Part shown: positions 5,656 through 21,259 of the stretch, piece after piece
Position numbering within the stretch: position 1 is the first letter of the stretch
Layout of the letters: the number at the start of each line of letters is the position of its first letter
IMG/VR virus record: IMGVR_UViG_3300025264_000112
Coordinates: 1 to 24,379 of that record
Origin: a virus
Length of the DNA stretch: 24,379 bases
Strand: one strand, 5' to 3'
The notes under the pieces: model-generated
Database searches by the model: none
The model's input: the letters and a program-made list of their open reading frames with translations, nothing else
Told to the model about the DNA's origin: nothing
Program-made: the position numbers and the translations under genes

Positions 5656-6594
5656 ATGGATGAAAAAGATGAATGGGAAACTGTAGAGGTTTCCAGCGAT
5701 GATGTTCCTTATGAAATCGAGGAAGAGGAAGAAGTAACGGAAAGTGCTCCCACCCCAGAACCAGAGGAGGTTGCCTCCAAACAAACTGAAGAAGCTCCTA
5801 CAGAACTGGAAGGTATTAATACCAGGGGAGCAGAGAAGCGTATCCGGCAACTTATAAGACAACGTAAGGAGCGGGATGAGCAGATTCAACAGTTAATGCA
5901 AAGTAATGAAGATCTGACAAATACACTTCTTGAAAAGAATCAGGAAGTAAATTCCATAGCAAAACAGAGTCTGGATGCCAGTGAGAAACAATTAACGGAT
6001 AAAATGGATTTAGCCAGATCTGTCTATATGGAAGCTTTTGAAGAAGGTGACAAGGAAAAAGTTCTTAAAGCTCAAGAAATGTTGAATGATGCTCAATCAG
6101 ATTTAAAAACGGTTCATATATATAGAGCTAATAATGAAGAGCAGGAAGAAGAGGAATACTATTCAGAACCTATAGAAGAATCCTTTGTACCTGCTCCTGT
6201 TTATGATCCAAGGGCCAGAGATTGGGCCGAAGATAATGAATGGTTTGGAGCTGATCATGTAATGACCGCTGCTGCTTTGGCAATTGATAATCAATTAAAG
6301 GAAGAAGGCTATAATCCAAATGATCAAGAATTTTATCAAGAAATTGATAGTCGAATCAAAGAAGCTTTTCCGCAAAAGTTTGGAAAAGTTCAAGAACGTG
6401 CGCAGGAAAACACGACGGAACCTGCTCAAGTGGTGTCGGGGGCTTCACGCTCGTCTCCGAATTCTTCCAAGAAAGTTAAACTTTCTAAAGAAGATATAAG
6501 ACTTGCCCAGAAGTGGGGCATTCCACTTGAATACTATGCTGCCGAAAAGCTTAAAGTTAGTAAAGCTGACGGCGAATATACCAATATTAATTAG
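5656..6594 (+). CDS. Probable capsid scaffolding protein
   Basis: Forms the temporary core around which the capsid shell is built. There is no catalytic motif. The call rests on position (between portal and capsid genes) and build: 312 residues, close to the P22 scaffold (about 300), a very acidic N-terminus (EIEEEEEV and following), a charged coiled-coil-like middle (about 55-130), another acidic patch EEQEEEEYYSEP, and a basic C-terminal end (SSKKVKLSKEDIRLAQKWG) like the coat-binding tails of known scaffolds. GGAGAG at 5645-5650 is five bases before the ATG. Its own promoter at 5582-5610 suits a protein needed in large amounts. Confidence 0.8.
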   Translation: MDEKDEWETVEVSSDDVPYEIEEEEEVTESAPTPEPEEVASKQTEEAPTELEGINTRGAEKRIRQLIRQRKERDEQIQQLMQSNEDLTNTLLEKNQEVNSIAKQSLDASEKQLTDKMDLARSVYMEAFEEGDKEKVLKAQEMLNDAQSDLKTVHIYRANNEEQEEEEYYSEPIEESFVPAPVYDPRARDWAEDNEWFGADHVMTAAALAIDNQLKEEGYNPNDQEFYQEIDSRIKEAFPQKFGKVQERAQENTTEPAQVVSGASRSSPNSSKKVKLSKEDIRLAQKWGIPLEYYAAEKLKVSKADGEYTNIN

Positions 6595-7759: not shown

Positions 7760-8692
7760 ATGGCTATTAATAGAGCTAGTATTAGTAAAGAACTCCTTCC
7801 CGGTCTTAATGCTGTTTTTGGGTTGGAGTATGGTGAAGTAAACAACGAGCACAAAGTTCTTTATGAGGTAGAGAATTCAGATCGGGCATTTGAGGAAGAA
7901 GTCCTCTTCACCGGATTTGGAACTGCCCCAACAAAGGGCGAAGGTGCTGCTGTTTCCTATGATGATGCACAGGAAAGCTACACGGCCCGGTACACTGCCG
8001 AGACCGTGGCGTTGGCCTTTGCTATCACCGAGGAAGCAATGGAAGATAACCTGTATGATACGTTTGCAAAGCTTCGTGCCAAAGGTTTGGCCCGTGCGAT
8101 GGCAAATACCAAACAGGTCAAGGGTGCCAATCTTTTCAATAATGGTTTTACTGCCACTATTGGTGATGGTGTTGCGTTCTTTTCAGCTTCGCATCCCACC
8201 ATTGCAGATGGTAATCAGTCGAATCTGATGGCGGCTTCCGATCTTTCAGAATCTACCTTGGAGACAGCTCTTACCAATGTACAGAAGATCAAGGATGATC
8301 GTGGTATTCTGGTTGGTGCGAGTGCTGTTTCTCTACATATCCCAGTTGATTCGTGGGCAATTGCAGATCGTATTCTTTCCAGTCCTGGTAATACTCAAGC
8401 CAGTGCTGCGTCAGGTGCTACTTCTGGTGGCTTCAATACGAATGCAATCAATGCTACTCGTCATATGGGTATGTTACCTGAAGGTTATCATATCAATCGT
8501 CGTTTCTCTGATACGACATCCTATTTCATCAAGACTGATGTTCCGAACGGTACCAAGATGTTTATTCGTTCGCCTCTTCAGACCAAGATGGAACCGGATT
8601 TTGATACTGGCAATCTTCGCTTCAAGGCACGGGAGCGTTACAGCTTCGGTGTTTCCGATTGGCGGGGTTTCTTTGGAAGTCTCGGTTCTTAA
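7760..8692 (+). CDS. Major capsid protein, Mu gpT-like
   Basis: 310 residues forming the head shell. The segments ALAFAITEEAMEDNLYDTF, ARAMANTKQVKGANLFNNGF and VAFFSASHPTIADGNQSNLM, together with the late RERYSFGVSDWRGFFGS, match the Mu gpT type of capsid protein, which has the HK97 fold. The N-terminus has no long delta domain and no prohead protease is seen nearby, so a separate scaffold (5656-6594) is expected to guide assembly. GGGAGGA directly upstream is the best ribosome-binding site in this operon, and a terminator-like hairpin follows the stop, both typical for the most abundant virion protein. Confidence 0.9.
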   Translation: MAINRASISKELLPGLNAVFGLEYGEVNNEHKVLYEVENSDRAFEEEVLFTGFGTAPTKGEGAAVSYDDAQESYTARYTAETVALAFAITEEAMEDNLYDTFAKLRAKGLARAMANTKQVKGANLFNNGFTATIGDGVAFFSASHPTIADGNQSNLMAASDLSESTLETALTNVQKIKDDRGILVGASAVSLHIPVDSWAIADRILSSPGNTQASAASGATSGGFNTNAINATRHMGMLPEGYHINRRFSDTTSYFIKTDVPNGTKMFIRSPLQTKMEPDFDTGNLRFKARERYSFGVSDWRGFFGSLGS

Positions 8693-8748: not shown

Positions 8749-9297
8749 ATGGCTAACAAAAAGCTTAAAGACGTTCCACATATACGTCCTGATTTATTGA
8801 CTAGAGTACTAACTGGAGAGGGTAGTCCCACTATAGGAGATCTTCCACAAAAGGGAATATTGGGAAGTCATATAGCACCTCGACAAGCCAGAGTCCAACA
8901 TAAAACTTCAGTACGAAATTTTAAGAGGGGACTACAGGCAGAAGGTCGCCGAATAATGAGGTTAGAGAAGAAATGGAAAAATAATCGTGATCCTGATGAT
9001 TATGATGCTTTACAAAAAGCTATACAAGGATTTCATAATACTTTAGCTAGAGAAGAGGAACGACTAAATCCTGAAGCTGGGATGAAAGAACCTGGAGATC
9101 CAATAGGAACAGGTGGTCACCCTCTAATGATGGGAACAGTTGGTCGAGGTTCCCCACCCCAGTCTAGTCGAAAAAGAGGTGGCGCTGCTGGTTCTAAGGC
9201 TGCTAAAACTAAGTCTATTAAGAAACGAAAAAAGAAAAGTAAAGCTTTTTCTGGTGATGATTTTGTTCGTGAAGTCAATAACTACAAGGAAATGTAA
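8749..9297 (+). CDS. Lys/Arg-rich hypothetical protein
   Basis: 182 residues, strongly basic, with no recognised domain. The middle (about 55-105) is charged and helical; residues 140-170 are almost pure Lys, Arg, Ala, Ser and Gly (KSIKKRKKKSKAF). The end, GDDFVREVNNYKEM, faintly resembles the GNKxVASLYD tails of two later basic proteins. GGGAG at 8736-8740 is eight bases before ATG 8749; an upstream in-frame TTG (8734) is not needed. A DNA-binding internal head protein is conceivable from charge and position, but unproven. Confidence 0.72.
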   Translation: MANKKLKDVPHIRPDLLTRVLTGEGSPTIGDLPQKGILGSHIAPRQARVQHKTSVRNFKRGLQAEGRRIMRLEKKWKNNRDPDDYDALQKAIQGFHNTLAREEERLNPEAGMKEPGDPIGTGGHPLMMGTVGRGSPPQSSRKRGGAAGSKAAKTKSIKKRKKKSKAFSGDDFVREVNNYKEM

Positions 9298-9638: not shown

Positions 9639-10316
9639 ATGGTCGCTTATTCGTATTTGAAGGCGGACCTGATCAACTCGTCTGAGAATGACTCCACTGA
9701 TTTTGAGGCTCAGATTCCTTATTTTGTGGAGAAGGCAGAGTTACGTCTAACCAAGGATTTGGATGATGTCGGGCTAGATGAATATTCTTCAATAACTCTG
9801 ACTGCCGGTACTGCCACTGTTAGTCTGAATGATCGAGTTCGTATTGTACGCAATGTGAACTATACTACCAGTGCGTCCAGCATCAAGACAAATCTTCTTC
9901 AAAGAACAATAGAATATGCGAATGATTACTGGCCTGTCAGTGCATCCACAGGTACACCCAGATATTATTCCAGAAAAAATAATTCATCTATTTTTGTTGT
10001 TCCTACCCCAGCATCTACCTTGACTGGGGAAATCCAAACAGTTTCTCGTCCGCTTGCTCTTGCTTCCGCAACGGGTACAAGTGTGACAACCAGTAATTAT
10101 TTCAGTGAATATTGTTATGATGCCCTTTTCTATGCTTCCATGATTGAGGCAACCATGTACATGAAAGATTGGAATACATTACAAACATGGCAACAACAAT
10201 ATCAGGTTGCCGTGGATACACTTCGTAATCAGGCTCGCAGGACCAGACAGGACGATATGGCCGTGGCAGCAAGTCCAGCGGGTGGTCCAGACACACTAAT
10301 ACAGGGAGGAAGTTAA
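9639..10316 (+). CDS. Head-tail adaptor protein, SU10-type
   Basis: 225 residues; expected to form the ring attached below the portal. Visible features of this family are the N-terminal YSYLKADLINSSENDSTDFE, the helix with PYFVEKAELRLTKDLD, a central beta part ending in GTPRYYSRKNNSSIFVVPTP, and a long C-terminal helical segment (FYASMIEATMYMKDWNTLQT, then QYQVAVDTLRNQARRTRQDD). An in-frame TTG lies at 9609 inside the preceding gene; ATG 9639 is chosen because it follows the preceding stop. The gene ends in TAATG, overlapping the next start by one base. Assignment is by pattern and place in the order, without alignment. Confidence 0.8.
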   Translation: MVAYSYLKADLINSSENDSTDFEAQIPYFVEKAELRLTKDLDDVGLDEYSSITLTAGTATVSLNDRVRIVRNVNYTTSASSIKTNLLQRTIEYANDYWPVSASTGTPRYYSRKNNSSIFVVPTPASTLTGEIQTVSRPLALASATGTSVTTSNYFSEYCYDALFYASMIEATMYMKDWNTLQTWQQQYQVAVDTLRNQARRTRQDDMAVAASPAGGPDTLIQGGS

Positions 10317-10957
10317 TGGCAGCATGGTTAATACCAGTAGGTGTTGGCGCTTCAGCAGTAGCTAAAACACCAATAAGATATTTAGTTAAATGGATAACCC
10401 CAACTGGAAAGACAGCAACTAAATCAGTAGGAAGTAAAGAGGCTGGCATTAAAGCTCTAGGACAGAAAGGTTTTAAACCTAGTGATATTAAAGTAGAAAC
10501 AGGTAAGGGTGTTAGAGCCAAGGGAGCGGAACCAAAAAAGACTAAGTCATCTGGAAGGTGGGAAAAATTTAGAAAGCATGGAAGTCAGGTCGAAGGATCA
10601 GAAAAGGCTAGAGCAGAAGATGGAGGTAAGACTATGAAAAAGCAACACGGTGGTATGACTCATGTTGGTTTGTATCCTGCTGAAGAACGTGGAGAGGATA
10701 TATCAAGATCAACTGGTACTTTATCCCAGGCTAAACGAAAACGATATATGAATAAGGGTGGTATAGTAGGTGATAAGAAGCAGGGCTATAAGGCTCGTAA
10801 AGATGAGTCGATTGCCGAGAGAGTGAAGAAGAAGCGTACCAAGAAACAGCTTGTGGCCAGTCGAGATGAGTCTTATGGTAAGTGGGGTAAGGGTAAAGGT
10901 AAGGGTAAGATTAATCAAACTGATGGTAATAAGCTTGTAGCTTCTCTCTATGATTAA
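10316..10957 (+). CDS. Basic hypothetical protein with C-terminal GNKLVASLYD tag
   Basis: 213 residues with high Lys and Gly content, function unknown. The short N-terminal part (RYLVKWITPTGKTATKSVG, then EAGIKALGQKGFKPSDIKVE) looks like a small folded domain; the rest is low complexity with RKHGSQVEGSEKARAEDGGK and MNKGGIVGDKK. The last residues GNKLVASLYD recur almost exactly at the end of the next gene, though the rest of the two proteins differs. GGGAGGA precedes the ATG, which overlaps the adaptor stop. It could be a DNA-binding or ejected virion protein; this is inferred from charge and neighbours. Confidence 0.72.
   Translation: MAAWLIPVGVGASAVAKTPIRYLVKWITPTGKTATKSVGSKEAGIKALGQKGFKPSDIKVETGKGVRAKGAEPKKTKSSGRWEKFRKHGSQVEGSEKARAEDGGKTMKKQHGGMTHVGLYPAEERGEDISRSTGTLSQAKRKRYMNKGGIVGDKKQGYKARKDESIAERVKKKRTKKQLVASRDESYGKWGKGKGKGKINQTDGNKLVASLYD
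10923..10957 (+). repeat. Copy 1 of a 35-base repeat encoding a shared C-terminal tag
   Basis: Matches 11475-11509 at 32 of 35 bases, including the stop codon. Two differences are silent and one changes Leu to Phe. Confidence 0.85.
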
Positions 10958-10981
10958 GGATAAAGGTAAAGGAGATAATTA

Positions 10982-11509
10982 ATGTATTTACAAACAGGTT
11001 CAAAAATTTTTAATCTTTTAGGTGGCCGTGCAGCAGCAAAGAAAGCATATGAGATGATTAAAAATTATATGGGTAGTGATGTTAGGGTAATTTCAAAGCC
11101 TACCACAGCTCAAAAAAAAGCCGCAACAGAATTATCCTCTTCTCGTAGTCACGCTGTACAAACTCTACGAAAAGTAGGGGAAGAGGCACAAGGACAAAGG
11201 AATATTAAGTATTGGGATAGAATTATAAATCCTCCTAAACAAACTAAAGGTATAAAAACACAATCAGGTGAAAGAGGAGAAGGTTTAACAGAAGCACAAA
11301 AGGCTGCACGTAGTAGAGCAAGTCAACAACAATTTCTGAAGGCAGAGAGACCTGCTCGTCAGAGGCAAGAAGGAATACAATCTGCAAGGGAGAAGAGACG
11401 TTGGGCAGAAAGAGATGCTGAAAGAAACAAAGGTGGTCAAGTAGGTAATAAGAAGAGTTCTAATAATCATGCAAATGGTAACAAGTTTGTAGCTTCTCTT
11501 TATGATTAA
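10982..11509 (+). CDS. Basic helical hypothetical protein with C-terminal GNKFVASLYD tag
   Basis: 175 residues, rich in Arg, Lys, Gln, Ala and Glu; no family recognised. The N-terminus (YLQTGSKIFNLLGGRAAAKK) may form an amphipathic helix. Residues about 95-150 (EAQKAARSRASQQQFLKAER, then QSAREKRRWAERDAERNKGG) are highly charged helix. The tail NKGGQVGNKK followed by GNKFVASLYD parallels the preceding protein. AAAGGAG at 10968-10974 is seven bases before the ATG, an excellent site. By neighbours it may be an internal or ejected virion protein. Confidence 0.72.
   Translation: MYLQTGSKIFNLLGGRAAAKKAYEMIKNYMGSDVRVISKPTTAQKKAATELSSSRSHAVQTLRKVGEEAQGQRNIKYWDRIINPPKQTKGIKTQSGERGEGLTEAQKAARSRASQQQFLKAERPARQRQEGIQSAREKRRWAERDAERNKGGQVGNKKSSNNHANGNKFVASLYD
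11475..11509 (+). repeat. Copy 2 of the 35-base C-terminal tag repeat
   Basis: Second copy of the stretch at 10923-10957; see that entry. Both copies end in TATGATTAA, so the ATG at 11502 inside this copy may be a by-product of the repeat and not a true start. Confidence 0.85.
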
Positions 11510-11534
11510 TCGAGCCAGTGTGGGACAAGAGATT

Positions 11535-11744
11535 ATGAAAGCACCCAAGAAACGTCAGAGTGGTAAGAAGTGGATTCAAGGAGCTATCAAGCGACCAGGA
11601 GCTTTACGAAAGAAACTGGGAGTGAAGCCTGGAAAGAAAATAACAGCGGCTCAATTAAGAAAAGCTTCCAAGAGCAAGAATCCTAGAACACGTAGACAGG
11701 CTAACTTAGCCAAGACACTAAAAAAGATGAACAGGAAAAGTTAA
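11535..11744 (+). CDS. Small very basic protein with KPGALRxxLGV-type motif
   Basis: 69 residues from this start, about one third Lys or Arg. The pattern WIQGAIKRPGALRKKLGVKP, then GKKITAAQLRKASKSKNPRT and RQANLAKTLKKM, is one I recognise from small proteins of many phages; their function is not established to my knowledge, and DNA or capsid association fits the charge. The start is uncertain: ATG 11502 overlaps the previous gene and has no ribosome-binding site, while ATG 11535 follows a weak AAGAG. The gene ends in TAATG with the next start. Confidence 0.78.
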   Translation: MKAPKKRQSGKKWIQGAIKRPGALRKKLGVKPGKKITAAQLRKASKSKNPRTRRQANLAKTLKKMNRKS

Positions 11745-12941: not shown

Positions 12942-14930
12942 ATGGCCTATCCAAAACTAACTCCACAAAATGCTAAAGAAAGGGCTTTTATACGTTCTAT
13001 TCAAGATGGAGAGGTAGGACATTTACCTAAAAGTAAGTGGGGTCTTGCTGTTAGCCCTGATGGCGCTAAAGGACCAATGCAAATAATGCCCAAAACTTAT
13101 AAAGACGTTATGGGTAGTATGAAGGGTTGGGATAATCCTAAAAAATTAGAAGAGGCTGGAATAACATATGCTCTAACACAGTATAGAGCTTTTGATGGTA
13201 ATGTTAGACGAGCGGCAGGAGCTTATGTAAGAGGTCCGTCAGATGAAAGAAAGAGAAAACCTCTGGGAGATAGATCAAAGTATTATGTTAATAGAGTTAA
13301 TACCACATACAAGACACTAATGGCTGATACTTCAGGTCAACCAGTGGCTAGACCAACAAAAAGGGAAACATCTCAAATGGCAACAGATAAATGGAAAACA
13401 CATCCATTGTATAGGCAATGGGTAAAAGCCAATAAATTAGATCGGACCAAGGCAGAGGGACAACGAAGGGATCTCTATAATCAGGCCAGAAGAGCTGTAA
13501 ATGAGGAAAATAAATTAAAAAAGAGAGGCATTATTATTCCACCTCGTATAGCTAATTCTGCTTCGGCTGGTAGACAGATAGTAAAGGCTTATGAGGCTAA
13601 ACCGCCCACAGCGGCTGAGATAGCAGGAATGGCAAAGGGCGTTGTTGACTACTGGACATATGCTACACTACCAGCATCTATAGGAGGAATTGTATCTCTT
13701 GGTAGAGGAGCTTACAGATTATTTAATGCAGCCGGTAAACAATTTGGAAAAGTATTTAAAAGTAAGGCGGCGGCTCTGGAAGCAGGGAGAAAGGCAAAAC
13801 CACCTCCAAGTGCTGCTCCTCCACAACCACCAAGAATTGCTAGTCCAGACAGAGGGTTTTTTGGTAGGCCGATACAAAAAGCAAAAGATCAACCTAGAGT
13901 AAGGGCAGCAGAAAAAGTTAAACAACAAAAAGAAAAGGCAAGAGCTGCCAGAGAGGCACGTGAAGCAAGAGAAAGAGCCGAAAATGAACGGATACTGGAA
14001 CTTAGTCGTGGACCAACACCACCTCCAGTACCTCGACCACCTCCAAAGACACCAACGAGAACTGCTCGTCCAGGCGAAGGTCTTTATGGTGGGACAACAA
14101 CACAAGCATCAAAGACACAGCCACGGCCAGCACCAAGGCCACAGTCAAGGCCAAATGGAAAGCCAAAGCCACAGCCGAAGCCGAAGAAACGGCTGAATAA
14201 ACTGGCAAAGGCACACCCTGTTCTAGGAACAGCAGCGGTATCGCTGGCATTAGGTATTCCCGCTGCTTTTATTACTAAAGAACTAATGGATAGATATAAG
14301 GTAAATCCTGAAAGTGCTCAACGAAAGGCTAATCAGATAAAGAAACAAATAAATCAGGTTAATAATAAACTTCCAGATAATGCAAGAAAAGTGACGACAC
14401 CACAAAATTTAGAAACACTACAAAAACGTTATGGACTTCATTCATCACAAACAGGACCGATAAAGAAGGTTAAAAAAGTAAAAGATTCATATGATTTTGG
14501 AGCTACACCACCTATATTTGAAAGTAAAGTCCCAACAAATCAAAAAGTAAAGGATACGAAAAAACCGGGTTGGCTTCCTTGGGATTGGATAAAGAAATCT
14601 GGACCAGATACTAGCGCCCCAGCAAAACGAGTATATATAGCTCCATTTGGAGAAGTGACTGTAGGAGAAGATCCAGAGGAGACAGCTCGAAAAGAGAGAG
14701 TATTTCAAGAAACTAACTATAAAAGGGGTGGTCAGGTTAGAAAGGGTCCGAAGAAAACTAAAGCTCGCAGGGTTAAAACAAAACCACTAACATTAAAACA
14801 AAGAAGTGCTTTGAAACAGCATTCTCAGAAACATACATCAAAACATATGATATATATGCGTGATCGTATGAAGCAGGGAGATACTTTCAAAGATGCTCAT
14901 CGAAAAGCTACAAGAAGGGTAGGCAGATAA
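12942..14930 (+). CDS. Lytic transglycosylase-like virion protein fused to a basic C-terminal domain
   Basis: 662 residues. The N-terminal 130 resemble an SLT-type lytic transglycosylase, which cuts peptidoglycan: EVG with likely catalytic Glu24, AVSPDGAKGPMQIMPKTY, AGAYVRGP and YYVNRVNTTYK. Next come a basic helical region, a moderately hydrophobic stretch (226-258), long Pro/Lys/Arg-rich linkers with two similar segments (RIASPDRGFFG and RTARPGEGLYG), and a likely membrane segment (about 424-441, VLGTAAVSLALGIPAAFI). The end has a GGQV motif and a basic domain, LKQRSALKQHSQKHTSKHMI and GDTFKDAHRKATRRVG, which I recognise as a separate small protein in many viruses. This build suggests a protein that is packaged, ejected and opens the cell wall during DNA entry, comparable in role to T7 gp16. 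The function is inferred. Confidence 0.75.
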   Translation: MAYPKLTPQNAKERAFIRSIQDGEVGHLPKSKWGLAVSPDGAKGPMQIMPKTYKDVMGSMKGWDNPKKLEEAGITYALTQYRAFDGNVRRAAGAYVRGPSDERKRKPLGDRSKYYVNRVNTTYKTLMADTSGQPVARPTKRETSQMATDKWKTHPLYRQWVKANKLDRTKAEGQRRDLYNQARRAVNEENKLKKRGIIIPPRIANSASAGRQIVKAYEAKPPTAAEIAGMAKGVVDYWTYATLPASIGGIVSLGRGAYRLFNAAGKQFGKVFKSKAAALEAGRKAKPPPSAAPPQPPRIASPDRGFFGRPIQKAKDQPRVRAAEKVKQQKEKARAAREAREARERAENERILELSRGPTPPPVPRPPPKTPTRTARPGEGLYGGTTTQASKTQPRPAPRPQSRPNGKPKPQPKPKKRLNKLAKAHPVLGTAAVSLALGIPAAFITKELMDRYKVNPESAQRKANQIKKQINQVNNKLPDNARKVTTPQNLETLQKRYGLHSSQTGPIKKVKKVKDSYDFGATPPIFESKVPTNQKVKDTKKPGWLPWDWIKKSGPDTSAPAKRVYIAPFGEVTVGEDPEETARKERVFQETNYKRGGQVRKGPKKTKARRVKTKPLTLKQRSALKQHSQKHTSKHMIYMRDRMKQGDTFKDAHRKATRRVGR

Positions 14931-15016
14931 TGACAGATAAATCCTGTTCTGGATGTAAGTGCGATTGCCACTGTGATAAAGAAAAATGTGAGAATTGTAA
15001 ATGCGGAAGTGAGTAA
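14930..15016 (+). CDS. 28-residue cysteine-rich peptide, metallothionein-like
   Basis: Eight of 28 residues are Cys (6, 9, 11, 13, 15, 20, 23, 25), plus His14 and no aromatic residue. The spacing gives one CxxC followed by four CxC-type steps, then a second cluster with CxxC and CxC, the pattern of metallothioneins that bind Zn, Cu or Cd through thiolates. The ATG overlaps the previous stop by one base (TAATG), and its own stop overlaps the next ATG in the same way, just as in the neighbouring genes; AGG at 14921-14923 is six bases upstream. This fit on both sides makes chance unlikely. It is far shorter than usual bacterial metallothioneins (about 50-60 residues). A disulfide- or zinc-stabilised structural peptide is the alternative. 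Confidence 0.7.
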   Translation: MTDKSCSGCKCDCHCDKEKCENCKCGSE

Positions 15017-15690
15017 TGGCAGTTTCGTCTACATATAATTTTAACCTTGATATAGATGAGGTTATACAAGAAGCAATGGAAATGATCGGAGGGGAAGATA
15101 CTCTAGGTCATGAGCCAGCTTCTGCTCGACGTTCAATTAATCTCATGCTCAAGGACTGGCAAAATAGAGGTATTCTTCTGTGGAGTACTTCTGTTTCCAG
15201 TGTAACTGTGGCTGCAAGTGTTACCGCATATAGTCTGGATTCCTCAACTGTGGACGCTCTGGAAGTTGTTCTAGGTCGAGACGACACAGACATACAACTT
15301 ACTCGTATATCTCCAGAGGAATATCTTCTTATTCCAAATAAAACCCAGACAGGCCGACCTATGCAATACTCTATTCGGAGAGGTATGGCCAATCCTACCA
15401 TGTCTGTCTGGCCTATTCCTGAGAATTCCACGGATGTTCTTAAAATAGAGGTTATTAGCGAATTAATGGATGTAGATAAATCTGCTGGACAAAATGCAGA
15501 TATGCCAAAGAGATTCCTTCCACCTCTTACGTGTGGACTATCTTATTACATGTCAATGAAACGTCCTGGTGTTCCTCCTGAAAGGATATCGATGCTGAAA
15601 ACTAATTATGAAGAGATATTGTTCAGAGCTATGCAGGAGGATCGAGAAAGAGCTTCCATGCGTGTTGTACCCAGATTAGGATATATCTAA
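15016..15690 (+). CDS. Neck protein, P22 gp4-like (packaged-DNA stabilisation)
   Basis: 224 residues, expected to form the ring below the portal or adaptor that closes the head. Features typical of this family: an N-terminal helical part with LDIDEVIQEAMEMIGGED and RRSINLMLKDWQNRGILLWS, a central beta region with DALEVVLGRDDTDIQLTRIS and RPMQYSIRRGMANPTMSVWP, then the PPLTCGLSYYMSMKRPGVPP helix and a basic end (RERASMRVVPRLGYI). In P22, gp4 follows the coat protein and is the first neck protein added. It overlaps its neighbours by one base at each end. Assignment is from pattern and order, so a second adaptor role is the alternative. Confidence 0.78.
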   Translation: MAVSSTYNFNLDIDEVIQEAMEMIGGEDTLGHEPASARRSINLMLKDWQNRGILLWSTSVSSVTVAASVTAYSLDSSTVDALEVVLGRDDTDIQLTRISPEEYLLIPNKTQTGRPMQYSIRRGMANPTMSVWPIPENSTDVLKIEVISELMDVDKSAGQNADMPKRFLPPLTCGLSYYMSMKRPGVPPERISMLKTNYEEILFRAMQEDRERASMRVVPRLGYI

Positions 15691-16016
15691 TGGCAAGTAA
15701 TAGAAATGCTCTGGCTGTATGTGATACATGTGGATTTGTATATCCACACAGAGTAATGCAGATGAATAGTTACGGTATGCTGGTTTGTCCGCAAGACTTT
15801 GAAGGTCAGTACGATCTGAAGAACAGTCCTTTAAATAAGATACCGGATGTACGAGATAATCCAGCAATTTTGAATCCAAGACCCGATTATTTGGGGGGAC
15901 GAGGAGTTATGTGGAATAAGAGTAAAACATGGATAACAACTAATCCTGTAACCTTGGCAGAAACAACGCATACTACCAAATGGGATGATGCTAACAGAAG
16001 TTGGAACACAATATGA
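15690..16016 (+). CDS. Small phage protein with CxxC motif
   Basis: 108 residues. The N-terminal part has Cys11 and Cys14 (CDTCGFVYP) and Cys33 in LVCPQDFEGQYDLKN. Three Cys could bind zinc with one more ligand, such as His20, or the motif may be a remnant of a zinc ribbon. I recall similar proteins beside gp4-like genes in marine phages, without known function. The C-terminal half is polar with several Trp. The ATG overlaps the previous stop (TAATG) and the stop overlaps the next ATG (ATGA), so it is translated in the same coupled chain. Confidence 0.75.
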   Translation: MASNRNALAVCDTCGFVYPHRVMQMNSYGMLVCPQDFEGQYDLKNSPLNKIPDVRDNPAILNPRPDYLGGRGVMWNKSKTWITTNPVTLAETTHTTKWDDANRSWNTI

Positions 16017-19000
16017 CAGATCTAACAGGTAATTTAATATCAGAAACATATAAGCAAGTTCTGCTTATCAATGCCAGTACTACCAATAGTGGTGTTGATA
16101 CCTCTCTGGTGAATGTACAGACAGGAGATGGAACTAATAGTGCTTTGCAAGTTGCAACTAATGCAGTGAAGGTTGCTGGTACGTTTGCAGTATCCGGAGC
16201 GGTTTCACTGGATGGTAATATGCATGTGGATGACAAGGTATGTGCCTCGGCATTCTACGGAGATGGCTCTAATATTACTGGAGTGACTGCCACGATTGCA
16301 GGTAACATCTCTGTGAGTAATGTAACAATTGGTGGGACTTTACATGTTGCTGGTATTGCCACATTAGCTGGTGCTACGCATCTTAAGAGTACGGTCACAG
16401 TAGGTGGTGCAGCTAACTTTGGTAGTACAGTTACCGTGGTAGGTGCTGCTCATCTGCAAAGCACAGCTTCCATAGGTGGAGCCGCCACGTTTGCCAGCAC
16501 AGTCACGGTTGTGGGAGCAGCCGCACTAAAAAGTAATGTATCTGTTGGGGGTACTCTGGCAGTAGCCGGAGCAGGTACATTCACATCCAAGGCAGAATTC
16601 AAGGACGATGTATCAATTAGTGGTAATTTAGATGTAGCTTCTGCTGCATGTATAGGTGGCACTTTCATGGCAGTTGGAAATGCTACTTTCGATGGGGATG
16701 TCTCTGTAAGCGGTGGTCTGGTAGTTGGTGGTACGGTAACTATTGTAGGAACTAATGTACAAGCTGCTAATGCCAGAGTATGTGCATCTGCATTCCACGG
16801 GGATGGTTCTAATTTAACTAATATAGCTGGCTCGGCGATCTCAGGTAATATCTCTGTTAGTAATATCAGTGCGGGAGGTGATCTCAATGTAGCTGGTGGA
16901 GCTTCCATAGTAGGTACTGTGACAATAGTCGGAGCTAATCTACAAGCTACCAATGCCAAGGTATGTGCGTCTGCATACTATGGTGATGGTTCTAATCTTA
17001 CTGGAGTTGTGGCGTCTATTACAAGTGGTGTTATAGCTAATTTATCTATAACTTCCAATTTAGATGTTGGAGGTAATACTTCCATAGGTGGTACTTTTAA
17101 ATCTACAGGAGCAGGTACATTTGCATCCACGGTTACAGTTGTAGGTGCTGGTACATTTAAAGATGATGTATCAGTTAGTGGTAATACTGTTCTTGGTGGA
17201 ACATTAAGAGTTGCAGGAGCAACCTCTCTTGAAGGTGCAGTTGATCTTAATAGCACACTTACTGTAGCAGGAGCAGTATCACTTGCATCAACACTATCAG
17301 TTGGAGGTGCTTCACACTTTGCTTCTACAGTTACTGTAGCAGGAGCCTCTCACCTTCAAAGTACAGTATCTATTGGAGGTGCTGCTACATTTGCTTCGAC
17401 AGTTACTGTAGCAGGAGCAGCTATATTTGAAGACAGTGTTTCTGTTAGTGGTAATTTAGATGTTGCTGGTAATGTATCAGTAGGTGGAACTGTCTTTGCT
17501 GCTGGTGGTATTACATACGATGGAGATGTTTCTGTTAGTGGTAATCTGGCTGTGGGAGGTAATACTTCCATAGGAGGGACACTTAGTGTTACAGGAGCGG
17601 TAAGCCTAGCTTCTACTCTTAGTGTTGGAGGTGCTGCTTCATTTTCTTCAACAGTTGCAGTGGGAGGTACTACAAATCTACTAGCAGATGTTTTAATCTC
17701 AGGAGATGCTGTCGCTGCTGGTACTTTCCAACCTCAAGGTGATACTGCCTCTGGAGATGATGCAGCTATAGGATACACATCTGGGGAAGGTCTTATTCTT
17801 ACAGGACAGGGAAGTACCTCAGATATTACACTAAAGAATGATGCCGATGGTACGGTATTCACGGTTCCAACTGGTACTGATGATATTCTTTTCCCCGATA
17901 GTGCCAAAGCTATGTGGGGAGCTGGTAGTGATCTTCAAATTTATCACGACGGCTCCAATAGCTATATTGATGATTCTGGTAGTGGTCTGTTACATATAAG
18001 AGGAAGCCAGATTAATATTAATAAGTACACTGGCGAAAACATGGCAACATTAGTTGCAGATGGTGCTGTTACACTTTATTATGATAATAGTGCAAAACTT
18101 GCTACAGCATCTGGTGGTGTAGATGTAACAGGAGATTTAACTGCTACTGGAACTATTGAACCTGCTGGAGATACAGCCGCTGGAGATAATGCTGCTATAG
18201 GTTATACTAGTAGTGAAGGCCTTATCCTAGCTGGTCAAGGCAGTACAGGTGATGTCACTATAAAGAATGATGCTGACACTAATATATGTTATGTTCCCAC
18301 TGGAACAAATTATCTGCGCTTTACCGATAGCAGATATTTATCGTTTGGCGATTCCGATGATCTTCAAATTTATCACAATGGTACTGATAGTTATATTACG
18401 GATGTAGGCACAGGCGTTCTTAAAATTACATCTGATGGTGGCTCAATTAGTTTCCAAAAGAGTAATAGTGAAGTTATGGCAACAATGGCAACAGATGGTG
18501 CTGTTACACTTTATAATGATAATGCTATAAAACTTGCTACAGCCTCTACTGGCATAGAAGTAGGAGCATCAGGTGTAAATGCTACTATTAAGACTCACAG
18601 TGCTGGAAGTAGTAATTTAACATTGGGTGTTAATGCAGGTAATACTATCGAATCAGGTGGTAATTATAATACCTTGGTAGGCGACGAAGCTGGCACGGCT
18701 ATCACAACAGGCGATAATAATGTTGCTGTGGGTTATGGAGCCTTGGATGCTGGCACGACGGCATCTTACATCACAGCAATTGGTTATAATGCTCTTGGTG
18801 CTAATACGACGGCTAATAACTGTGTAGCGGTTGGTAATACTGCTCTTGCTGCGAATACGACAGGAGCACATAATGTAGGGATTGGTCATCAAGCCCTTAA
18901 TGCAAATACTACGGCTGCGAATAATGTGGCTGTTGGTAAAAATGCTTTACTTTTAAATACCACCGGATATTCCAACGTAATGGTAGGGACAGATGCTGGC

Positions 19001-21259
19001 GATGCCATAACTACGGGACCACTTAATGTGGGAGTGGGCCATAACGCATTAGGTACAGTCGTAACGGGCCAAGAAAATACGGGTATTGGGTATAACGCCC
19101 TATCTCTAACAACTGTTTCAGACAACACAGGTATTGGAGCTTATGCTGGTGATGCTCTGACAACCGGAGCTAACAACACCTGCGTGGGAGCTTACTCTCT
19201 TAGTGCGGCTACTACCGGCGCTTCAAATGTGATGGTTGGGGCTTGGGCAGGAGATGTTCTTACTACAGGATCAGATAATACTGGTATCGGCATACATTCT
19301 CTTGGTGCTTTAACGACTGCTGGCTCTAACACAGCGGTAGGCGCTAGTGCCGGGATAAATACAACTACCGGCGATTCAAATACATCGCTTGGTGCAAGTG
19401 CGTTTGCAGCAAATACAACCGGAGCATCGAATGTTGCCGTAGGTGTTCAGGCTCTTGATGCCAACACGACGGCTGCTGGTAACACCGCTCTGGGCTACCA
19501 AGCTATGAGTGCAAATACGACCGGAACAGGTAATGTTGCGGTGGGTTATCAAGCTCTGGATGCCGTCACAACGACATCTGGGCATACTGCTGTAGGATAT
19601 TCTGCTCTTGGCGCAGCAACCGACAGTGGCAATACCGCCGTTGGTTATCTTGCTTGTCGTGACACTGCTGGGGGCGCTTATAACGTAGCTGTGGGTCACG
19701 AAGCTCTACTAGTAAATACAAGCGGGGTGTACAATGTTGCCGTAGGTAATGGTTCTCTTGATGCTAATACTTCGGGAGGTAATAACACTGCTGTAGGCCG
19801 TCTTGCTCTAAGTGCAAATACAACGGCTTCTGATAATGTTGCCGTAGGATCTACTGCTCTTGATGCCAATACAACGGCTTCTTATAACACAGCAGTAGGC
19901 AGTTCTGCATTAAGTGCAACCCAGACCGGCGCTCAAAATACCGCCGTAGGCACATATGCTCTACAAAATGCCCTTGAGGACAATAATACAGCAGTTGGCT
20001 ACGCAGCAATGCAGAACTGCACTACCGGCGAGTATAATACAGCCGTGGGACATGCGGCTCTTGATGCAACTGTAACTAGCGACTACAACAATGCATTTGG
20101 TGTTAGTTCGTTAACCACTCTTACAAGCGGGGCAAACAATAATGCTTTTGGTTCTTCTGCTGGTCAGGCATTAACAACTGGCGGGAGTAATGCATTCTTT
20201 GGCGGAGGTGCTGGGTACACTCAAACTACAGCAGGTTCCTGTGCATTCTTCGGGCATAATGCTGGGTATTATAATAATGGGGCTAATAATAGTGCTTTTG
20301 GGGCTACTGCTGGAGATGCCATTACTACAGGAACTCTTAATGTTGCCGTAGGCGCTACTGCTCTGACTGCCAATACAACGGCTTCTTATAACACAGCAGT
20401 GGGCTATGGTGCTATGGCGGCAAATACGACGGGAACATTCAATACAGCAGTGGGTTATGGTGCTCTGGATGCTTGCACTACAACAAGTCAGAATACTGCT
20501 GTTGGGTACAATGCTATGGGTGCATGTACTGGATCTGGAAATGTTGCCGTTGGTGATCAGGCTATGCTTGTTGCTGTTGCCGCAAGTTATAATGTAGCTG
20601 TGGGTGATCATGCAGGAGATTCCATTACAGACGGCACAGGCAATCAATTACTGAGTTATTATGCTGGCGCTGGCATTACAACTGGTGATTATAACGTCTG
20701 TATTGGATATAATTCCGGAACGCATAGTGTAGCCACGACCACTGGATCAGGAAATGTGTTCATCGGCAATGGCGCACATTCTTCTGCTGTTGGTGTGAGC
20801 AATGAAATGGTTATTGCTTCTAGTGCGAATATTCAAGGTAAGGGTGCTAGCACTGGTTTCATAAATGCTAACACTGGTGGCAATTATGCCGGTAATAACT
20901 CAGCCGATTGGTCAACAAACTCCGATAGACGAATTAAAAAGAACATCGTTGATAGTCCAAAAGGACTTGCTGAGATCCTCACGGTCGTTCCGAAGAACTT
21001 CCTCTATAAGAGCGATGAAGAACTTCAAGAAGATTTCCCCGGTGCTCAAGAGGGTCTGCCGCAAGATGTTTTGACAACGAGTGCCATTGCACAGGAGTTG
21101 CAAGAAGCATTCCCGGAAGCAGTCACCGAACGGAGTGATCATGGAATATTATCGGTAGATCGTGGCCCTGTGGTTTGGGCAATGATTAATGCAATAAAAG
21201 AACTATCCGCTGAAATTGATGAACTGAAGAAATGGAAAGAAGAACACACTAGTAAATAA
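16013..21259 (+). CDS. Giant tail fibre with YadA-like repeats and S74 chaperone
   Basis: 1748 residues, probable receptor-binding fibre, presumably trimeric. Regions in order: N-terminal anchor (1-40); short beta repeats with three KVCASAFYGDGSN-type modules and many STVTVxGA units (about 60-565); a tandem pair of 143-residue modules (570-712 and 713-855) with DLQIYHDGSNSYI and MATLxADGAVTLY; some 40 repeats of the kind NTAVGxxALxANTT (about 876-1610), as in the heads of trimeric autotransporters (YadA, Hep_Hag); and a C-terminal S74 intramolecular chaperone (1637-1748). The last begins SDRRIKKNI and is expected to cleave itself before Ser1637 by a Ser/Lys pair (Lys1642), with IAQELQEAFPEAV following. 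ATG 16013 is chosen within the ATGA overlap with the previous gene; an upstream in-frame TTG is ignored. Confidence 0.92.
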   Translation: MTDLTGNLISETYKQVLLINASTTNSGVDTSLVNVQTGDGTNSALQVATNAVKVAGTFAVSGAVSLDGNMHVDDKVCASAFYGDGSNITGVTATIAGNISVSNVTIGGTLHVAGIATLAGATHLKSTVTVGGAANFGSTVTVVGAAHLQSTASIGGAATFASTVTVVGAAALKSNVSVGGTLAVAGAGTFTSKAEFKDDVSISGNLDVASAACIGGTFMAVGNATFDGDVSVSGGLVVGGTVTIVGTNVQAANARVCASAFHGDGSNLTNIAGSAISGNISVSNISAGGDLNVAGGASIVGTVTIVGANLQATNAKVCASAYYGDGSNLTGVVASITSGVIANLSITSNLDVGGNTSIGGTFKSTGAGTFASTVTVVGAGTFKDDVSVSGNTVLGGTLRVAGATSLEGAVDLNSTLTVAGAVSLASTLSVGGASHFASTVTVAGASHLQSTVSIGGAATFASTVTVAGAAIFEDSVSVSGNLDVAGNVSVGGTVFAAGGITYDGDVSVSGNLAVGGNTSIGGTLSVTGAVSLASTLSVGGAASFSSTVAVGGTTNLLADVLISGDAVAAGTFQPQGDTASGDDAAIGYTSGEGLILTGQGSTSDITLKNDADGTVFTVPTGTDDILFPDSAKAMWGAGSDLQIYHDGSNSYIDDSGSGLLHIRGSQININKYTGENMATLVADGAVTLYYDNSAKLATASGGVDVTGDLTATGTIEPAGDTAAGDNAAIGYTSSEGLILAGQGSTGDVTIKNDADTNICYVPTGTNYLRFTDSRYLSFGDSDDLQIYHNGTDSYITDVGTGVLKITSDGGSISFQKSNSEVMATMATDGAVTLYNDNAIKLATASTGIEVGASGVNATIKTHSAGSSNLTLGVNAGNTIESGGNYNTLVGDEAGTAITTGDNNVAVGYGALDAGTTASYITAIGYNALGANTTANNCVAVGNTALAANTTGAHNVGIGHQALNANTTAANNVAVGKNALLLNTTGYSNVMVGTDAGDAITTGPLNVGVGHNALGTVVTGQENTGIGYNALSLTTVSDNTGIGAYAGDALTTGANNTCVGAYSLSAATTGASNVMVGAWAGDVLTTGSDNTGIGIHSLGALTTAGSNTAVGASAGINTTTGDSNTSLGASAFAANTTGASNVAVGVQALDANTTAAGNTALGYQAMSANTTGTGNVAVGYQALDAVTTTSGHTAVGYSALGAATDSGNTAVGYLACRDTAGGAYNVAVGHEALLVNTSGVYNVAVGNGSLDANTSGGNNTAVGRLALSANTTASDNVAVGSTALDANTTASYNTAVGSSALSATQTGAQNTAVGTYALQNALEDNNTAVGYAAMQNCTTGEYNTAVGHAALDATVTSDYNNAFGVSSLTTLTSGANNNAFGSSAGQALTTGGSNAFFGGGAGYTQTTAGSCAFFGHNAGYYNNGANNSAFGATAGDAITTGTLNVAVGATALTANTTASYNTAVGYGAMAANTTGTFNTAVGYGALDACTTTSQNTAVGYNAMGACTGSGNVAVGDQAMLVAVAASYNVAVGDHAGDSITDGTGNQLLSYYAGAGITTGDYNVCIGYNSGTHSVATTTGSGNVFIGNGAHSSAVGVSNEMVIASSANIQGKGASTGFINANTGGNYAGNNSADWSTNSDRRIKKNIVDSPKGLAEILTVVPKNFLYKSDEELQEDFPGAQEGLPQDVLTTSAIAQELQEAFPEAVTERSDHGILSVDRGPVVWAMINAIKELSAEIDELKKWKEEHTSK
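16238..16282 (+). repeat. Fibre module VCASAF-GDGSN, copy 1
   Basis: 45-base coding module (VCASAFYGDGSNITG). Related copies of the same length lie at 16778-16822, 16961-17005 and, in the second fibre gene, at 22745-22789. The first 14 bases here are identical to those of the copy at 22745. Confidence 0.85.
16778..16822 (+). repeat. Fibre module VCASAF-GDGSN, copy 2
   Basis: Encodes VCASAFHGDGSNLTN. It is followed, as in copy 1, by a GNISVSN segment. Confidence 0.85.
16961..17005 (+). repeat. Fibre module VCASAF-GDGSN, copy 3
   Basis: Encodes VCASAYYGDGSNLTG. It is 183 bases after copy 2, while copies 1 and 2 are 540 bases apart. Confidence 0.85.
17720..18577 (+). repeat. Diverged 429-bp tandem duplication in the fibre gene
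   Basis: Two modules of exactly 143 codons (17720-18148 and 18149-18577). Aligned landmarks are GYTSxEGLIL, the GQGST segment, DLQIYH and DGAVTLY; each is 429 bases from its partner. The copies have diverged mostly in the middle of each module. Confidence 0.85.
18640..20850 (+). repeat. YadA-head-like repeat array in the fibre gene
   Basis: About 40 imperfect repeats of some 14-19 codons centred on NTAVG/NVAVG and ALxANTT. The array includes long exact DNA matches, the clearest being 33 bases shared by 19864-19896 and 20368-20400. The repeats are coding; no separate element is implied. Confidence 0.85.

Follow-up and report, generated by a model that had tools for sequence, protein, structure and literature searches.

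What does it mean that two adjacent phage genes, encoding basic proteins of otherwise different sequence, close on nearly the same ten residues? The locus lies in a linear IMG/VR fragment of 24,379 bases, analyzed over its whole length and referred to here as the window, whose genes include those for a terminase, a portal, a GroES-like protein, a capsid protein and tail proteins. The original prediction had described two neighboring basic proteins that end in GNK[L/F]VASLYD, and both are present as described (Table 1), with 35-base 3′ ends (10923–10957 and 11475–11509) that agree in 32 bases, stop codon included. The tag pattern occurs twice in the whole window and not once in 100 shuffles; the shuffles and the background of internal 10-mers given below rule out chance as the source of this shared ending, hereafter tag A.

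Table 1. Features of the window at and around the tagged locus (positions in the 24,379-base stretch).
Feature	Coordinates	Strand	Remarks
182-aa basic protein	8749..9297	+	ends SGDDFVREVNNYKEM; possible decayed tag, marginal
Ring gene 1	9639..10316	+	phrog_2941 virion structural protein; 5′ border of tagged block
213-aa basic tagged protein	10316..10957	+	slot directly after ring gene 1; ends GNKLVASLYD
Linker NKGGIVGDKK	10751..10780	+	in 213-aa protein
Module QGYKARKDESIAERVKKKRTKKQLVASRDESYGKWGKGKGKGKIN	10781..10915	+	in 213-aa protein
Tag A copy 1, GNKLVASLYD + stop	10925..10957	+	C-terminus of 213-aa protein
175-aa basic tagged protein	10982..11509	+	ends GNKFVASLYD
Linker NKGGQVGNKK	11426..11455	+	in 175-aa protein
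Tag A copy 2, GNKFVASLYD + stop	11477..11509	+	C-terminus of 175-aa protein
80-aa very basic protein	11502..11744	+	N-terminus MINRASVGQEIMK resembles capsid protein N-terminus MAINRASISKEL
SLT transglycosylase-domain protein, 662 aa, untagged	12942..14930	+	inside block; best PHROG hit "internal virion protein with endolysin domain"
Ring gene 2	15016..15690	+	phrog_12985; relatives annotated tail, portal or Pam1 adaptor; 3′ border of tagged block

One reading is that the two window proteins are ordinary paralogues, i.e., diverged copies of one another. They do have in common, upstream of the tag, a linker of the form NKGG[IQ]VG[DN]KK that the original prediction did not mention, and their N-terminal parts preceding this linker align with a score of 57, where shuffled sequences average 36 (sd 6.5). 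This score is reached by 8 of 1000 shuffles and both proteins are Lys-rich, so that it hints at similarity only weakly at best; an unfiltered BLASTP comparison of the two returns 26% identity in an alignment covering the tag and Lys-rich stretches. The earlier statement that the bodies do not align by eye agrees with the absence of convincing body homology, to which the shared linker and the weak score have to be added. Against diverged copies, no relative bridges both proteins, the 175-aa protein has no relatives and is confined to the present phage and a near-identical contig, L007, and the tag is carried by about 35 body clusters (see below); we give ordinary paralogy next to no credence. 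The 213-aa protein is itself modular, consisting in order of a GLYPAE-like module, the linker, a QGYKARKDESI..DESYGKWGKGKGKGKIN module and tag A, and its predicted structure, obtained with shallow alignments, is read as disordered (mean pLDDT of 45.7). Following tag copy 1, ATGATTAAGG is left where relatives such as L011 begin their next gene, as if the second tagged gene had been inserted after copy 1.

To place the shared ending among other phages, relatives were gathered via the 213-aa protein, via the capsid protein (a sample blind to the tag) and via DNA patterns, and were scored position by position over ten residues, a protein being called tagged when it reached at least 12 bits within eight residues of its C-terminus. 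The best C-terminal scores are bimodal, and 218 ORFs from marine phage contigs reach this threshold, corresponding to 146 distinct proteins; among internal 10-mers, 18 of 463,523 reach 12 bits and none reaches 18. The search pattern takes the form G-x-x-[VLF]-V-x-x-x-Y-D, at the C-terminus or up to eight residues from it, with a consensus of G-[GND]-x-[VLF]-V-[AD]-[SA]-x-Y-D in which Tyr (136/136), Gly (135/136) and Val or Ile (131/136) are conserved. The tag is the exact end of most tagged proteins and is followed by one to eight extra residues in the others; the GNAT protein of L122, a 106-aa protein of L129 and the variant of L038/L054 are weak, doubtful members. An independent scan, with Y-x-M-[ST]-G-G-Q-V-V as the pattern, covered 2.9 million viral contigs and found 109 sites. 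Of these, 108 are C-terminal, with the stop 14 to 16 codons further on, and each of the 108 proteins terminates in Y[DE] plus zero to two residues, although Y[DE] lies outside the search pattern. The tag has no match among 50,697 phage records, and at tblastn E-values of up to 10 no cultured phage carries it. Bacterial and archaeal genomes totaling 257 Gb, searched with GN[DKEN]FVAxxY, gave 28 hits, which we take as chance matches, as they fall in unrelated, scattered taxa, many in short open frames, with no Lys/Gly-rich lead-in; nonmarine viral hits to P|GNEFVAC were likewise set aside, having only one to three open codons upstream. A survey of marine phages for GNxxVASLYD-like C-termini and for their clustering had been suggested as a check; it reveals wide recurrence within one gene block, and neither of the two outcomes named beforehand as refuting the idea, ordinary paralogy or a lack of recurrence, was obtained. 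We regard the tag observation as confirmed, real and general. The tag is undescribed as far as our sources tell, in that no description of it in these phages was found in the open-licence literature, which is weak evidence. The carriers form a family of uncultured marine phages related to short-tailed pelagiphages.

The proteins that carry the tag are heterogeneous. At an E-value of 1e-4, 133 bodies fall into 35 clusters, the largest of which is chained through small modules and composition, and 59 long members align with a mean identity of 9%, both invariant columns of that alignment (Gly and Tyr) falling in the tag. Tagged bodies have a mean net charge per residue of +0.17, as compared with −0.06 to +0.01 in core virion proteins. 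The recurrent domains among 59 tag A proteins are LysM (7/59) and dockerin-type repeats (3/59), with no others found to recur; beyond LysM/endolysin families these 59 proteins have no Pfam or PHROG match to T7 or P22 ejection protein families, and tag A proteins have no PADLOC match to anti-defence families. Dockerin/EF-hand-like loops (DLTGDGEVTKADIL) also recur in small proteins of L055, L109, L074 and in HTVC027P gp44. The tag usually sits on a Gly/Lys-rich tail; in a LysM member of 554 residues, positions 513 to 554, tag included, fall below a pLDDT of 50, and tagged tails are apparently disordered, as judged from low-confidence models with shallow alignments.

The sequence of the tag is constrained at the protein level: tags that use the same residue do so with different codons in 38% of pairs. 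An alternative is translational coupling, in which YD-stop is kept since TATGATTAA supplies the start codon of the next gene. This start indeed lies within the end of the tag in 28 of 62 stop-ending tags, including copy 2 in the window, where the ATG of the next gene lies inside its TATGATTAA. However, most of the remaining 34 tags lack such an overlap, the Tyr is retained in tags that carry extra residues, TAC encodes the Tyr of some tags, and the upstream G..V is left unexplained. Coupling may have caused the choice of TAT-GAT codons, but as a full account of the tag it is already contradicted and we assign it very little probability.

Tagged genes are confined to one structural-gene block. 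On contigs that contain the anchors, ring gene 1 is always upstream of the tagged gene (130/130) and ring gene 2 always downstream of it (76/76); 85 tagged genes are immediately adjacent to ring gene 1, and 32 contigs bear two or three tagged genes. Tagged genes occupy slots 1 to 7, with differing downstream neighbors. Among the capsid-based sample plus isolates, the slot right after ring gene 1 is tagged in 20 of 64 contigs, and many of the others have a second tag there (tag B, below). The anchor genes themselves, for capsid, portal, putative scaffold (5656–6594) and ring proteins, are untagged, except for two small basic members of the p80 family, and the capsid and ring proteins have no solved relatives by sequence. 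We dropped the labels "adaptor" for ring gene 1 and "nozzle" for ring gene 2, as annotated relatives name the latter adaptor. The untagged SLT protein within the block matches phrog_342, and its last ~60 residues (KPLTLKQRSALKQHSQKHT...VGR) form a separate small gene in L011 and L052, suggesting a fusion or a split. The 182-aa protein upstream had been credited with a weakly similar end, and SGDDFVREVNNYKEM does resemble a MSGDDLVRSCYD variant found in relatives, but only with a two-residue gap; because 3 of 2415 tails without a tag do equally well, it is only a possible decayed member. A separate observation is a 1752-aa fibre-like protein (16001–21259) that contains long repeats and whose C-terminal end by eye resembles an intramolecular chaperone domain.

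The same block harbors a second C-terminal tag on unrelated proteins, RGVGxALRGYGKA (tag B), carried by L073, L102, L105, L106, L016 and about 70 other contigs. With a looser pattern, 115 occurrences are C-terminal and one is internal; ring gene 1 precedes 84 of 84, and ring gene 2 follows 51 and precedes four; in an independent scan, all 101 sites are C-terminal, with 45/45 after ring gene 1 and 44/44 before ring gene 2. LysM is found in 6 of 69 tag B proteins. Judged by sequence and position, tag B behaves like tag A. A third type of label may be N-terminal: the starts of the 80-aa protein (11502–11540) and of the capsid protein (7760–7795) are similar, as they are in many relatives, and a capsid-like start of the form INRASIxKEL, at a score of at least 10, is found in 37 of 2559 N-termini and at 18 of 388,981 internal positions. 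Some small basic proteins carry both this N-terminus and tag A, and it is possibly a mimic that docks on the capsid. Strict covariation of the N-termini of small proteins with that of the capsid protein is suggestive in L076, L070 and L078 but inconsistent overall, and was discarded. The 80-aa protein also has a weak similarity to fusellovirus VP2 (E-value of 0.0076, below the curated cut-off). Further endings shared by block proteins are [HP]NRLY on different proteins of L073, L077, L085, L089, L090 and L104, QNRLYM in L099 and L110, and RNPYNYxPRAI in L052 and L067.

Comparison of closely related contigs reveals that the tag is retained while the bodies are swapped. Ring protein 1 is at least 80% identical in 672 contig pairs, and in 531 of these the next slot encodes unrelated bodies whose tags are on average 72% identical. 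In L218 and L225, the DNA of ring gene 1 is 99.9% identical over 674 nt and the bodies that follow are unrelated, with identical tags; homology ends at the start codon of the slot, is back ~60 nt before the stop and then continues nearly unbroken downstream as far as the compared DNA reaches. L134/L166 and L172/L220 have the same pattern, and in such swapped pairs, with a neighboring gene 99 to 100% identical, the body is replaced and the last ~40 to 65 bases are kept. This resumption of homology, and the 32 of 35 bases shared by the two window copies, would also fit a constant 3′ end that is nothing but a homology arm for cassette exchange, with no function in the protein. Synonymous variation across lineages with an invariant Tyr speaks against such a bare border, as do the occurrence of tags at slots 1 to 7 with differing neighbors downstream, the extra residues that follow some tags, and the module QGYKARKDESIAERVKKKRTKKQLVASRDESYGKWGKGKGKGKIN, which precedes tag A in most contigs but tag B in L038. 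In HTVC027P gp47 and L033 the module has no tag after it. We consider this explanation improbable; as the tag DNA does coincide with the homology border in swaps, recombination could nonetheless help to hold the tag constant.

A strictly C-terminal position, constraint at the level of the protein, many unrelated bodies, a single structural-gene block and retention through swaps together make a sorting signal, as originally proposed, well supported. We propose that GNKLVASLYD represents one form of a C-terminal tag that sorts cargo to the virion: basic proteins whose bodies are exchanged as cassettes would be loaded by it and then ejected. We put the probability of this reading at roughly 0.58. 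Proteins encoded between the two ring genes would carry the tag, usually on a flexible Gly/Lys-rich tail, where a constant assembly partner (scaffold, capsid interior or portal) most likely recognizes it and would load the basic proteins into the procapsid alongside the DNA, from which they would be ejected into the cell. As only the tag would have to be kept, the bodies are exchanged as cassettes. Packaging into the head, or docking, is suggested by gene position, basic charge, predicted disorder, LysM domains and precedent, and the cargo is probably made up of ejected proteins.

The flanking of the block by two ring genes and the recurrence of LysM, which also suits a tail position, could reflect a tag by which accessory proteins and those that act on peptidoglycan are held to the ring/tail complex, outside the head. 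The strongly basic bodies and the disorder of their low-confidence models fit an internal location better, however, the capsid-like N-terminus of some tagged proteins favors the interior, and most tagged bodies lack a wall-binding domain; docking on the tail or neck, which with the bare recombination border is a chief competitor of the cargo reading, is in our view unlikely. Short C-terminal degrons are a known kind of signal, and a short C-terminal tag on disordered proteins might likewise be recognized by a protease or act as a host degron. Its restriction to one structural block, its absence from other phage proteins and the lack of a known resemblance to ssrA-type tags make a degradation or processing signal very improbable. 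That tag A imitates a core protein was also considered and dropped, as the best conserved look-alike, GSAFKKxYYD of the portal, is not above chance by a rough count. Returning to sorted cargo, a broader picture can be offered tentatively, as possible rather than probable: tag A, tag B and the capsid-like N-terminus would be interchangeable labels that load fast-changing proteins, their bodies swapped like cassettes, into the virion as an injected arsenal.

Through these findings, a large number of marine phage proteins that lack names can be approached by their sequence. Block proteins that end in G-x-x-[VLF]-V-x-x-x-Y-D or RGxGxAxRGYG are testable candidates for cargo delivered by the virion, and the cassette pattern marks where these phages may hold changing factors of first contact. 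If the cargo reading is true, the tag corresponds, at the C-terminus, to the targeting signal of T4, such a signal is compatible with rapid exchange of bodies, and a small loading tag becomes available for phage particles.

Several known systems offer comparisons. Gp47 of the Pelagibacter phage HTVC027P has the QGYK.RKDESI...DESYGK module in common with the 213-aa protein (84% over 32 residues), but its gene is located elsewhere and the protein stops before the tag. The ejection proteins of podoviruses (T7 gp14–16; P22 gp7/16/20) are mosaic and poorly conserved and have wall-acting domains (PMC8954989), and are not known to share a terminal tag. Wall-acting domains are also found here, as LysM in tagged proteins and in the SLT protein of the window block; the tagged bodies have no detectable homology to the ejection proteins. 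Encapsulation peptides of microcompartments and encapsulins are terminal peptides that load unrelated cargo, as tag A may do, but into a different shell. The capsid-targeting sequence of T4 is N-terminal and is cleaved by the prohead protease. T-even internal proteins are highly diverse, with only a short targeting peptide constant (PMC3012670). As with tag A, a constant short signal is placed on diverse proteins of a variable locus. The T-even internal proteins are basic and packaged with the DNA; the tagged bodies are likewise basic, and are proposed to be packaged. In contrast to the N-terminal signal of the T-even phages, the marine phages have a C-terminal one, with no relatedness seen between the two, and have an additional tag class in tag B. 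By analogy, tag A would work like the N-terminal targeting signal of T4 without being homologous to it.
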